From a virus, in the IMG/VR virus record IMGVR_UViG_3300034072_002252, positions 1 through 24,780 of that record: DNA of 24,780 nt; one strand, written 5' to 3'. The translations under genes and the position numbers were made by a program. A model generated the notes under the pieces. It was given only the letters and a program-made list of their open reading frames with translations. It searched no databases and was not told where the DNA came from. Numbering within the stretch: position 1 is the first letter of the stretch; each line of letters begins with the position of its first letter. Shown piece after piece: positions 16,404 to 20,356 of this stretch.

Positions 16404-17330
16404 TTACAGGAAGTCGGCGACCAGAACGTCGAACTTGTCTTTGAGGTCATTGCTGACAGACGTGCCACCGTCGTCAATCAAGTCGCGAGACTTAATCTGG
16501 TTGGCGATTTTCTGTTTGCTGTTCGGGACCACCAGCAACAGCTTGTTTTTGCCAAGACCCAGTGGCCGGCCACCGTCCGCTTTAAAGCCGCTCATCATTT
16601 CGATGGCCTGCCACAGCGTGGCGTAGGTCAGTTCTTTTTTGACGCCAATGGCCATCTGCCAGAAACCGAAACCAACGTTAGATCGCAGGTCAACACCGTA
16701 ACGGAACAGCTTTTTGGTAAAGACCTGCTCGTCATTCGGGTTATCCATGGCCGTGAACTGCGGCTTTTTGCGTTCCTGGTAAATAATCGGTTTCAGGGAA
16801 CGGCTGACATCGAGCAGGAACCAAGGCTCGCCGACATAAGCGCCGTCGATAATGACGTTGGACACTGAATTGTTGGTGCCTGAGCCGTCGACTTTGGTGT
16901 TGACCGGATGGTCGGTATCGAGGAAATACTGACCGTCATAACAAACCGTAGTGAAACCTGCTTTGAGCAGTGGGAACACCAGTTCGTCCGGGAAGACTTC
17001 AGAGGCATAACCCATTTCATCGAACATCGGGTTGTAAACACCCAGATTGTCATCTTCGATGTCGTTGCGGTCGACACCGACGCTGCTTTCAAAGTCTTTG
17101 TTTTGGATGGAATAGGCATGTTCTTTCATCGAGTTGATGACGCGGTCGCCAATCCATTCCCGAAAGCCTGGCCACTGACCTAACCAGCCATAAGTGTTGC
17201 TTTTAGTGGTGCTCGGAACCACTGTGGCAACCTGCAGGTACTGTGGCTTTGCCCGGACTTTGCCTTGTTCAAAAACTTTGTTAAAGGCAACGCGCATGGC
17301 GTTTAAGGTTGCATTACTAATCAGTGCCAT
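16404..17330 (-). CDS. Major capsid protein, Mu T-like
   Basis: The 308-residue protein matches the Mu gpT major head subunit in length and sequence. It opens with LNAMRVAFNKVFEQGK, followed by TYGWLGQWPGFREWIGDRVI and the mid-region KDFESSVGVDRNDIEDDNLG. It forms the hexamers and pentamers of the icosahedral head. AGGAG lies 9 bases before the ATG, within the end of the protease gene, so the two are probably coupled. A GC-rich hairpin follows its stop codon. Confidence 0.92.
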   Translation of the reverse strand: MALISNATLNAMRVAFNKVFEQGKVRAKPQYLQVATVVPSTTKSNTYGWLGQWPGFREWIGDRVINSMKEHAYSIQNKDFESSVGVDRNDIEDDNLGVYNPMFDEMGYASEVFPDELVFPLLKAGFTTVCYDGQYFLDTDHPVNTKVDGSGTNNSVSNVIIDGAYVGEPWFLLDVSRSLKPIIYQERKKPQFTAMDNPNDEQVFTKKLFRYGVDLRSNVGFGFWQMAIGVKKELTYATLWQAIEMMSGFKADGGRPLGLGKNKLLLVVPNSKQKIANQIKSRDLIDDGGTSVSNDLKDKFDVLVADFL

Positions 17331-17334
17331 GTGC

Positions 17335-17889
17335 TTAAGCTCCTAAGCCTTGGGCCAACTCAGCGTGGGAAATGCCGATTTGGTCTGCGACTAATTTCTG
17401 GTCTGCCGTTAACGACGCGACCGGTGATTTATCCTGTGTATCCGGCGCTTTGCGCTGTTCGGTCTGCTTTGCCGTTAAAGCAGCAACGACCGGGCGGGCA
17501 GCAAGCTGTGCTGTTAATGCAGCCATGTTTTGCTTGCCGAGGCTCACCAGGTAGTCCTTTTCAGCAGCCAGAATCAGCTTGCCGTCCTGCTCTGCCTGGG
17601 CAATCACTTGCTCCACAGTCAGGCTGGCTGTGGTTGCAGTCAGGGCGGCCACCTGCGTCAGTGCTGCGTTGTACTGTGCAATCGGCACGTACTGCGACAG
17701 GTCGACATTGCCGGCGCCGGCGGATTCGAGGGTTTCAATTTTTGCAGTTAAGGCCGCAACACTGCCGGCACTGGTCTGCAGATTGGTCACAGCGGTCAGC
17801 GCAGCCTGGGCTTGCTCGTCAGTCAGGTTGTCGCCTGGCTTCAGAGTAATGCCCAGCTTCGCCATCAACTGGATGAGCAAATCAGACAT
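17335..17889 (-). CDS. Internal in-frame start: scaffold protein, Mu Z-like
   Basis: Inside the protease gene, codon 187 is an ATG preceded at 8 bases by GGAGAT. It opens MSDLLIQLMAKLGITLKPGD and would yield a 184-residue C-terminal product in the same frame. In Mu, gene Z is made in just this way from within gene I and serves as the capsid scaffold. The C-terminal half here is Ala-, Gln- and Leu-rich and predicted helical, which suits a scaffold. The ribosome binding site is stronger than that of the full-length protein, which fits the higher demand for scaffold. Confidence 0.65.
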   Translation of the reverse strand: MSDLLIQLMAKLGITLKPGDNLTDEQAQAALTAVTNLQTSAGSVAALTAKIETLESAGAGNVDLSQYVPIAQYNAALTQVAALTATTASLTVEQVIAQAEQDGKLILAAEKDYLVSLGKQNMAALTAQLAARPVVAALTAKQTEQRKAPDTQDKSPVASLTADQKLVADQIGISHAELAQGLGA

Positions 17890-18447
17890 GGGTTTATCTC
17901 CGTGGGTGGGTAGTTCAAACCGGGCCGCCAGAGAGGCCAGCGCCTCCATACCGATGGCGCCGGGATTGTTAGTCAGCGCCGCCATCAGAATTTCTGTTGG
18001 CTCGCCAGTCGTGGTGTCGTAAGGGAAAACAGCGGACAGATAGCGGTACTCTTTGGCGTCGACATAGCCTTGGGCACGCGGTGTCCATCGAGGTTTAACG
18101 AAAAGGCCTTTGCCTGGGCGATACTGAAACTCGTTAAAAAAGCCAGCAGCTGGGGCCGCGATACCGGTTTTGGCTGCGTTTAAGGTTTGGTGTTCGTAAT
18201 CGATGACCAGCTCATTCTGGCGAAGAGCTGCTTTTGAAATCAGCCGTGCAGCAACGTCTGCATTCATCCGCCATTTGCCGCCAGGCACGTCATGTGGCCG
18301 GCCATCAACGGCAGAGAACTCGCCATCAGGTAGCAACATTTTCCAGTCATCGCCTTCGCTCAGTTCTGCCGTCAGAACGGCATAACCCAGCTGGCCAACA
18401 CTGGCAGCAGAGAGAACGGCGATGGATAAAGCAGATTCGGAAAACAT
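17335..18447 (-). CDS. Head maturation protease/scaffold, Mu I-like
   Basis: This 370-residue protein combines a capsid maturation protease with a scaffold tail. The N-terminal half (about 1-180) carries the Mu I family pattern: AVLTAEL, PGGKWRMN, LVIDYEHQTLNA and EYRYLSAVFPYD. The His and Ser in the last two motifs are likely catalytic residues. The C-terminal half is Ala/Gln-rich and helical, with SLGKQNMAALTAQLAARP near the end, as expected for the Z scaffold part. The start is forced: a TAA stop lies in frame 15 bases upstream and no other ATG, GTG or TTG fits before the conserved region. Oddly, no Shine-Dalgarno site precedes it. The gene ends 4 bases before the capsid gene, whose ribosome binding site overlaps its last codons. 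Confidence 0.88.
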   Translation of the reverse strand: MFSESALSIAVLSAASVGQLGYAVLTAELSEGDDWKMLLPDGEFSAVDGRPHDVPGGKWRMNADVAARLISKAALRQNELVIDYEHQTLNAAKTGIAAPAAGFFNEFQYRPGKGLFVKPRWTPRAQGYVDAKEYRYLSAVFPYDTTTGEPTEILMAALTNNPGAIGMEALASLAARFELPTHGDKPMSDLLIQLMAKLGITLKPGDNLTDEQAQAALTAVTNLQTSAGSVAALTAKIETLESAGAGNVDLSQYVPIAQYNAALTQVAALTATTASLTVEQVIAQAEQDGKLILAAEKDYLVSLGKQNMAALTAQLAARPVVAALTAKQTEQRKAPDTQDKSPVASLTADQKLVADQIGISHAELAQGLGA

Positions 18448-18525: not shown

Positions 18526-19791
18526 CTATCTATACTGATTAATCAGCCTTGCATAATTAAACAGTCTATATAACGCGCCTTGATTGTTACCATTCATACC
18601 CGTAAACAGTGAGTCAAAGTACATTGCAGGAGAATATGGATCCATTGCTCCTATCTGATTTTCAAACCTAAGGGCTGTCGAAATATTTATAAAATTCAAC
18701 TCAGATTGCGCCTCTTTGGGTAAGGTTTTCCCATTCACTATTAGTCTGAATAAGTCGGTATGTTTAACCGACCAAACAACTAACAGCACTTTTATCCGAA
18801 TATCAAGATTCCCACCGTCACACAAAGCAAAAGTTGTACAAATCCTCTCTATCGTGCGAGCCTCAAACCCGTAAAAGAAATGGATTGCATTTAAAACGTC
18901 AGAAAAGCTAGACAGAGTATTTGAGTGAATTGAGTACGGATTAAAAAACTGTTTTACAAGGAACTTGAAGTGGTCTGCATTTTCTGAAATTTTGGTAACA
19001 GGCAACTGTAGATCCAGATTGATAAACTTGTGCAAATACTGGACCGCATCAAAATCCGCACCGAACTCATGTTTGATCAATGAGTGCATTTGTGTCTTGT
19101 GATACGCAATGACAAAAACCAAACCCTCTGCGTTAAGTATGTGCTTGATTGATTCCAAAACCTCTAACGCAAAATCTGGTCTGCATCTATCTAACTCATC
19201 AATTACAACGAGAATTTTGCCGTGTTTCGAAGAGACTTTCGCGAGCTCTAAAATAGCCTCTCGGAAATTTTCTTTTGCAATTTTCTCCTGTAATCCGTTT
19301 TTAAGCTTGTCTGAAATAAATGACTCCAACGCAGCTGTGGCTTCAGTACTAATAATTTCAGCTTGTTCACCGGGCAAAATTGCATCAAGCACCTCACTGG
19401 TTTCTTGCTTCAAAATAGTTCTTGAAAGCGCTTTAAGAACTATCGTTCCTGCAGCGGAGAAAACTTTTTTAGCTGTAAAGACTACTCTCCTTTGAGCCTC
19501 TTCAATCTGTGCATTATCTGGGGCGCTCAAAGTTTGTAAAATGTGCTGAGTAATCGTAATAAAGGGGTCACCGGATCGTTCTTGTTCAAAACAGTCGAAT
19601 ACGACGATTGGCAATTCTTTGCTTTTTGCAGCTGGCGTCAGATAATTTTCTATGAACGTCGTTTTACCATTTCCCCAAGTTGCATCTATACCAATGCTAA
19701 ACTGGCTTTTAATCTTAGTTGTTACGATATCGACTAATCTATCCGCAAAATCCTTCCGTTCATACACGTCGACTAGTTGTGCTTGACTCAT
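18526..19791 (-). CDS. KAP-family P-loop NTPase (inserted cargo gene)
   Basis: This 421-residue protein shows the KAP signatures. A Walker A (GIDATWGNGKTTFIENY) lies at residues 34-50. A Walker B with the Asp-Glu-x-Asp-Arg pattern (KILVVIDELDRCRPD) lies at about 192-206, and LVFVIAYHKTQMHSLI follows at the sensor position. Residues about 100-180 between Walker A and B hold mostly helical, mildly hydrophobic sequence, where many KAP proteins carry membrane segments; none is clear-cut here. The C-terminal half is unrecognised. The KAP family is named for Kidins220/ARMS and PifA, and PifA of plasmid F excludes phage T7. This gene is not part of the Mu-type head set, is separated by gaps on both sides, and is visibly more AT-rich than its neighbours. 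These point to recent acquisition as a cargo gene. An exclusion or defence role is inference. Confidence 0.85.
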   Translation of the reverse strand: MSQAQLVDVYERKDFADRLVDIVTTKIKSQFSIGIDATWGNGKTTFIENYLTPAAKSKELPIVVFDCFEQERSGDPFITITQHILQTLSAPDNAQIEEAQRRVVFTAKKVFSAAGTIVLKALSRTILKQETSEVLDAILPGEQAEIISTEATAALESFISDKLKNGLQEKIAKENFREAILELAKVSSKHGKILVVIDELDRCRPDFALEVLESIKHILNAEGLVFVIAYHKTQMHSLIKHEFGADFDAVQYLHKFINLDLQLPVTKISENADHFKFLVKQFFNPYSIHSNTLSSFSDVLNAIHFFYGFEARTIERICTTFALCDGGNLDIRIKVLLVVWSVKHTDLFRLIVNGKTLPKEAQSELNFINISTALRFENQIGAMDPYSPAMYFDSLFTGMNGNNQGALYRLFNYARLINQYR

Positions 19792-19799
19792 TCAATGCG

Positions 19800-19805
19800 T
19801 CCTTT
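19800..19805 (-). promoter_or_regulatory. Ribosome binding site of the KAP NTPase gene
   Basis: AAAGGA on the minus strand lies 8 bases before the ATG at 19791. The gene starts 118 bases after its upstream neighbour ends, unlike the overlapping head genes, so it has its own initiation signal. I found no convincing sigma-70 promoter in the AT-rich gap. Confidence 0.6.
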
Positions 19806-19889
19806 CGTTTAAATGCCATTTAAAACTCAACAGAATGCCTTTTTTTGCCATAAACATATCAGCACCGCATATTTACTGATTAAAGGCTC

Positions 19890-19910
19890 AAAACACGATA
19901 CAGGCGTTTT
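19890..19910 (-). terminator. Weak hairpin at the end of the virion morphogenesis gene
   Basis: On the minus strand, arms AAAACGC and GTGTTTT flank a 7-base loop, giving seven pairs with one G-T pair, right at the TAA stop. The T run is part of the stem and no further T run follows. It could be a weak terminator of the first late transcript, but the structure is not strong. Confidence 0.25.
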
Positions 19911-20356
19911 TATGAATTGGTAAGATGTTCCCGTAAAATACCCATAATTTCCACACTATCCTGCCAGGGGCCATCGGTGATGCCGATAAATGGTCGCGCC
20001 TCAATCCCGTCCTCTTCCCGGCCAAACTGATGCGTTGCGGCATATTCCAGATTTGAGCCAAATAGCAATTCAGATGCAGTGACTTCATAGCTCAAAGTGT
20101 CACGCAAAGTACCTTGGTCCTGCAGGATGCGATCTTCACCTTTTTTGCGGGCAAGGGTCTCGGGGGAAAGCGGCGCCCAAGGGGTGCCATCTGGTGCAAC
20201 TTCCAGTTGAAAGCGGGATTGGTGGGATTCCAGCAGGTATTCGCCGACTTGAGAAAGTGCTGGCTGTAGATCCCGGGTTTTATTCATCAGCTGATTGAGG
20301 GTATCGACCAGCTCGGATACTCCGCTCAGTTGAGCGGCAAGGTTTATGCCGGCCAT
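19910..20356 (-). CDS. Phage virion morphogenesis protein, Mu G-like / P2 S-like tail completion
   Basis: This 148-residue protein fits the virion morphogenesis family that includes Mu G and P2 S, which act at the head-tail joining or tail completion stage. Visible family marks are the helical N-terminus, the DGTPWAPLSPETLARKKG stretch, the turn ILQDQGTLRDTLSYEV, and LEYAATHQFGRE followed by a conserved-looking ARPFIGI near the C-terminus. Its length is usual for the family. It overlaps the upstream small gene by 13 bases. In Mu the G gene is the last of the first late transcript and gene I begins the next one. Here a KAP NTPase gene has been placed in that gap. Confidence 0.85.
   Translation of the reverse strand: MAGINLAAQLSGVSELVDTLNQLMNKTRDLQPALSQVGEYLLESHQSRFQLEVAPDGTPWAPLSPETLARKKGEDRILQDQGTLRDTLSYEVTASELLFGSNLEYAATHQFGREEDGIEARPFIGITDGPWQDSVEIMGILREHLTNS

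Follow-up and report, generated by a model that had tools for sequence, protein, structure and literature searches.

Why does a Mu-like phage carry a KAP P-loop NTPase gene between two genes of its head cluster, and what does that gene do? The window, i.e., the whole 24,780-bp stretch of virus contig analyzed here, holds homologues of F, the portal gene and the major head protein gene T in Mu order (Table 1). The KAP reading frame is intact, with an ATG start, 421 codons and zero internal stops. It is separated by 118 bp from the G homologue and by 78 bp from the I homologue, in agreement with the neighbors and the flanking gaps that the initial annotation had described from the sequence. Its claim of AT-rich foreign cargo was likewise borne out, as GC content falls from about 53% to about 39% across the gene (38.6% in the G-I junction vs. 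52.7% in the flanks). A single reading frame was chosen in this junction, and no pair of an acr gene with an aca regulator was found there. Searches for a sigma-70 promoter between G and the KAP gene, and for a promoter or terminator on the KAP strand outside the reading frame, gave no convincing site; the gene could be transcribed together with the late genes. By analogy with Mu, whose record has a terminator and a late promoter annotated within the G-I junction, the gene would lie at the border of two late transcripts.

Table 1 Features of the window and of related loci (positions refer to the window unless a locus is named).
Feature	Position	Strand	Basis or remark
KAP P-loop NTPase cargo gene, 421 aa	18526..19791	(-)	PADLOC PDC-S20 type; PHROG 8614
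Walker A, DATWGNGKT, residues 36-44	19660..19686	(-)	W-G-x-G-K invariant in alignments A3 and A5
Walker B, VVIDELDRC, residues 195-203	19183..19209	(-)	DELDR invariant in alignments A3 and A5
Fast-diverging C-terminal part, residues 266-421	18526..18996	(-)	Candidate sensor or partner region
Shine-Dalgarno-like AAAGGA, 8 nt 5' of the KAP ATG	19800..19805	(-)	Read from sequence
Phased TTTAAA tracts, GTTTTAAATGGCATTTAAACG, left of the cargo	19806..19826	(-)	Candidate right arm of a strong gyrase site
gpG homologue (Phage_tail_S, PF05069), flanking the slot upstream	19910..20356	(-)	Pfam
Hairpin AGCCCAG-N13-CTGGGCT immediately 5' of the gene I start codon	18451..18477	(-)	Right border of the slot
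gpI homologue (Mu-like protease/scaffold, PF10123), flanking the slot downstream	17335..18447	(-)	Pfam
gpT major head protein (PF10124), survey anchor	16404..17330	(-)	Pfam
DUF2971 (PDC-S31) cargo, 2 loci	L002 6000-6926; L295 3919-5079		
Two-TM cargo family	L007, L009, L011, L012, L019, L022, L023, L038, L084, L202, L278, L295, L296, L301, L307, L308		

Family membership was assessed with protein profiles. The Pfam model KAP_NTPase (PF07693) matches residues 12-321 of the protein with 115.9 bits (E 2.7e-33), compared with a curated cut-off of 20 bits, and the KAP identity proposed earlier thus stands, as do both Walker motifs, whose cores are invariant over 102 aligned sequences. In this alignment W39, G40, G42, K43, D198-R202, P205, E213, H217, F226, G244, Y252 and F256 do not vary, and R312 is almost invariant. 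The top PADLOC family is PDC-S20, a phage-defense candidate (E 8.6e-61, residues 8-374 of 421), followed by QatA (3e-17) and PifA (4e-15). The gene adds a new member to this known candidate family. No phage record matched the window by megablast, a PDB sequence search with the KAP protein returned nothing significant, and a scan of viral contigs with the single protein found zero relatives; relatives were retrieved with an alignment as the query.

The AlphaFold2 model (pLDDT 85, pTM 0.81) comprises an NTPase core, a long helical insert (residues ~94-187), which is its least confident region, and a helical C-terminal part. Its best fold match in the PDB is RdrA of the RADAR system (E 1e-6, TM 0.4-0.5, large rmsd), a local resemblance confined to the ATPase core at ~13% identity. 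Transmembrane helices within the NTPase domain occur in many KAP proteins but are not universal. Hydropathy indicated none in the protein of the window, where the top 19-residue value is 1.32, and all six KAP proteins encoded in G-I junctions stay at or below 1.6 over any 19 residues. No distinct effector domain was recognised in the KAP gene.

The initial annotation further suggested that the junction between G and I may be a cargo hotspot. We drew loci from IMG/VR, from bacterial genomes and from phage records, and mapped the F, G, I and T homologues in them; this sampling leans to Gammaproteobacteria. The distance between G and I exceeds 600 bp in 51 of 91 distinct Mu-like loci, compared with 0/85 for F-G and 0/91 for I-T. 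Four loci (L100, L106, L202, L245) had been found via the KAP protein itself, and when they are left out the junction is occupied in 47 of 87. The GC content of the cargo lies below that of the flanking head genes in every one of the 51 occupied junctions (mean -9.6 points, Wilcoxon p 5e-10). The G-I junction is thus confirmed as a cargo hotspot of Mu-like phages. In part of the loci (e.g., L202, L245, L271), the I-T junction contains ~400 bp extra, which fits the small virion gene at RGP H of Pseudomonas Mu-like phages (PMC4378225).

Close relatives show the exchange directly. The DNA of the window is 89-90% identical to that of locus L002 on either side of a junction that in L002 holds a DUF2971 (PDC-S31) gene instead. 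In the comparison with L003, whose G-I junction holds no cargo, homology breaks off 9 nt past the G stop codon and restarts at the KAP stop codon. The gene hence displays two hallmarks of a moron, namely insertion between genes that sit side by side in close relatives (L003 empty, L002 with another gene) and a composition unlike that of its neighbors (GC 0.386 vs. 0.527). A KAP gene conserved in all relatives and sharing the composition of the head genes, which the initial annotation had named as an outcome that would speak against its reading, is not observed, as the slot of relatives whose flanks are ~90% identical holds a different gene or is empty. Empty junctions are also found in Mu and Vibrio phage ZX4290. 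Repeats at the edges of the slot are short, imperfect and compatible with chance, and no integrase was found in the G-I junction. The L003 record (IMGVR_UViG_3300034072_002256, 75,273 bp) contains one gene I homologue 94% identical to that of the window and a second one 52% identical to it, and therefore probably comprises two different, adjacent Mu-like prophages.

The comparison of G-I junctions proposed earlier indeed yielded differing cargos. Clustering of 96 reading frames gave 62 groups, certain small frames surely being non-genes. KAP genes occupy the junction in six loci (the window, L100, L269, L106, L202 and L245). The most common cargo is a family of ~270-315 aa proteins with two transmembrane helices, both N-terminal, and an FGDFFGG motif, present in 16 loci (Table 1). 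It matches PHROG 8999, gave no reliable match in a Pfam search, and may resemble abortive-infection proteins. L307 and L009 carry its genes in tandem, L202 has one next to the KAP gene, and in L295 one follows the DUF2971 gene. PDC-S42-type cargo was found in four loci, and PDC-M41A/B, DUF4747 and a type VI retron are single cases. The retron (RT_VI 3e-96) lies with its HTH gene in the slot of Shewanella phage MuM16-1, whose authors likewise named a type VI retron among the capsid genes (PMC8541194). All these defense labels are profile matches, and the slot also contains cargos without a known link to defense, including lipoprotein-like genes, Bro-N regulators and unassigned proteins.

Both borders of the slot carry recurrent sequence elements. 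On the left, the window has two TTTAAA tracts 11 bp apart, ending immediately 5' of the KAP ribosome-binding site. Across the 91 loci, the 170 nt past the G stop codon contain 118 TTTAAA compared with 30 expected (200 shuffles, maximum 48). The most common spacings are 11, 20-21 and 31 bp and thus in helical phase. The element is present in most relatives, in empty and occupied junctions alike. A gyrase cut site is annotated in the G-I junction of the Mu record, and the right arm of the strong gyrase site of Mu contains repeat motifs that bend DNA (PMC10052514). The group of the window shares with Mu this junction and helically phased AT tracts past G, with gyrase binding being a prediction here, and the TTTAAA element is a probable strong gyrase site judging from its sequence. 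In loci having the element, it precedes the cargo or sits near its start, so that the probable gyrase site is spared by the insertions.

On the right, a perfect hairpin ends 0-4 nt 5' of the ATG of gene I in 51 of the 91 loci, whereas the same search found one at the T start in 1/91 and at the G start in 8/91. Its stems are changed on both sides between lineages. Many of the hairpin loci also have a -10-like CATACT or CATGAT 6-12 nt 5' of the ATG, CATTAT is a further -10-like sequence close to the ATG, and the region looks like a near-leaderless late promoter. Transcripts from such a promoter could start within the hairpin, while read-through transcripts could fold and thereby hide the start of gene I.

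The closest protein found, 61% identical over its full length, is encoded in a prophage of Rheinheimera sp. 4Y26 (L100), likewise between G and I, and the head proteins of this prophage are 82-90% identical to those of the window. The host of the phage is therefore likely a Rheinheimera-like water bacterium. Between the two KAP genes, codon positions 1 and 2 differ by 0.27 and position 3 by 0.58. The excess at third positions points to selection on the KAP protein. Third positions of the head genes differ by 0.37-0.46, and the KAP gene has diverged beyond its neighbors at every codon position (61% vs. 82-90% amino acid identity). Its history has been faster than that of its neighbors or partly separate. 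Divergence is uneven along the protein, with identity to the Rheinheimera homologue dropping from 84% in the Walker B segment (residues 191-265) to 58% (266-330) and 45% (331-421), and identity to the L269 protein from 51% to 8% and 14% over the same segments. In a tree of 155 rows, the G-I KAP proteins fall into two branches. One origin for all of them is disfavored by the best tree, which requires two changes, although the strongly supported branches still allow one. KAP homologues in bacterial genomes have type I and type II restriction-modification genes among their neighbors; such neighbors are absent from 95 control proteins, a small sample with a loose control. Separately, an adjacent pair of KAP genes, one coding for ~1,000 aa and the other of the window type, is found on Burkholderia glumae plasmid pR52p (L093 4822-9257).

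From these observations, the most likely explanation, to which we assign a probability of about 60%, is that the gene is a moron, which a temperate Mu-like phage carries as single-gene cargo between G and I and which codes for a soluble, NTP-driven immune switch. The ATPase probably assists the host cell against other viruses. In a lysogen, the protein would work as an immune switch whose C-terminal helical region recognizes something that an incoming phage makes or alters. Binding of ATP together with assembly would then change the state of the protein, as could be envisaged for a protein whose nearest fold is the RdrA ring ATPase, and this change would block the superinfecting phage through exclusion or shutdown of the cell. 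The combination of a conserved ATPase motor with a variable C-terminal part would fit a switch that reads variable targets. Several points count against a role in defense: PDC-S20 is a candidate family, no convincing sigma-70 promoter precedes the gene, the slot also holds genes not linked to defense, the resemblance to RdrA is local, and the control for the neighborhood of KAP homologues is small.

An accessory role in the phage cycle, e.g., as an ATPase of the late operon for head assembly, packaging or gyrase-dependent folding of the genome, is unlikely in our view. It would be consistent with a gene on the late-gene strand that has a good ribosome-binding site and no promoter of its own that we could find, and that adjoins the phased TTTAAA element. 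However, a KAP gene is missing from relatives with ~90% identical head genes, occurs in only 6 of 91 junctions, three or four of which were found via the KAP protein, and has a foreign composition. Still less weight falls on lysogenic-conversion or selfish cargo that has no antiviral role and persists since inserts are tolerated in the slot. Acceptance of unrelated cargo such as lipoprotein-like genes agrees with it, but the codon pattern indicates selection on the KAP protein, and KAP genes from two branches of the tree recur at the slot. The least probable alternative is counter-defense, with a slot that serves the infecting phage and a KAP ATPase that disables host defenses at entry or in replication; the precedent of an anti-CRISPR gene with its HTH partner in the identical junction of DMS3 and at RGP G of D3112-like phages (PMC4378225, PMC10155984) is offset by the small size of such known cargo (~70 aa in DMS3) and its HTH regulator, none of which is seen in the window, by the defense function of the KAP relatives of known activity (PifA, QatA), and by the defense candidates among the other slot cargos.

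The immune-switch reading can be extended to the slot as a whole, and this broader proposal we put forward tentatively, as possible without being the expected outcome. In Mu-like phages, the junction would serve as a general dock for cargo that two fixed borders keep open, with the gyrase site on the left and on the right a self-contained start of gene I, whose hairpin would block production of the protease from read-through transcripts. Defense and counter-defense genes would be swapped via recombination between flanking head genes, and the KAP protein would be a one-gene immune sensor with its target set by the C-terminal part. If the slot is general, every Mu-like prophage marks a short region that is easy to clone and whose unknown genes are likely enriched in functions of phage conflict, a use for which the anti-CRISPRs of Pseudomonas phages are a precedent. 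The survey yields concrete candidates, namely the KAP genes, the two-TM family that occurs in 16 loci, and genes of the PDC-S31, PDC-S42 and DUF4747 types. The survey also ties the position of cargo to the central gyrase site, which Mu requires for efficient transposition.

Among known systems, PifA, which is encoded on the F plasmid and blocks phage T7, had been proposed as an analogy for the gene. What stands of this comparison is the shared superfamily, i.e., the KAP NTPase domain, together with carriage on a mobile element, although the two elements differ. Membership of the PifA family was rejected as the similarity is far from full length: residues 13-285 alone match positions 22-275 of the 720-position model, and the 421-aa protein has no candidate transmembrane segment. 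QatA shares the KAP NTPase core, but its score of 68.9 bits compares with an NCBIfam cut-off of 600 and no qatB, qatC or qatD is adjacent, so that QatABCD was rejected as well. Similarly, the gene does not belong to RADAR, since the likeness to RdrA is limited to the fold of the ATPase core and the gene is flanked by those for gpG and gpI rather than by an RdrB deaminase gene. PDC-S20 and PHROG 8614 KAP proteins match over most of the length and are of equal size class, whereas the protein of the window and its kin in L100 and L269 form a long branch of their own (SH-aLRT 100), ~20-30% identical to the other members. Within the reach of term searches, we found no literature under the name PDC-S20 and none on a general G-I slot for defense genes. 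The defense hotspots of P2 and P4 are likewise fixed phage sites with diverse, exchangeable defense genes (PMC9122126), but they belong to a different phage family, and the slot described here lies inside the head-gene cluster and has a defense function that is predicted only. The junction itself was known beforehand as the anti-CRISPR locus of Pseudomonas Mu-like phages. It corresponds to RGP G of Cazares et al. in D3112-like Pseudomonas phages (PMC4378225), contains the AcrIF7 locus in phage H70 (PMC10155984), and in DMS3 holds an anti-CRISPR gene and an HTH (aca1-like) gene (DMS3-30/31) between DMS3-29 and DMS3-32. The window shares with this locus the identical junction and low-GC, exchangeable cargo, and differs from it in carrying a large NTPase gene that lacks an aca-like partner and in its nearest known host, Rheinheimera. 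The slot thus widens a site already known for anti-CRISPRs in Pseudomonas Mu-like phages to more phages and more cargos.
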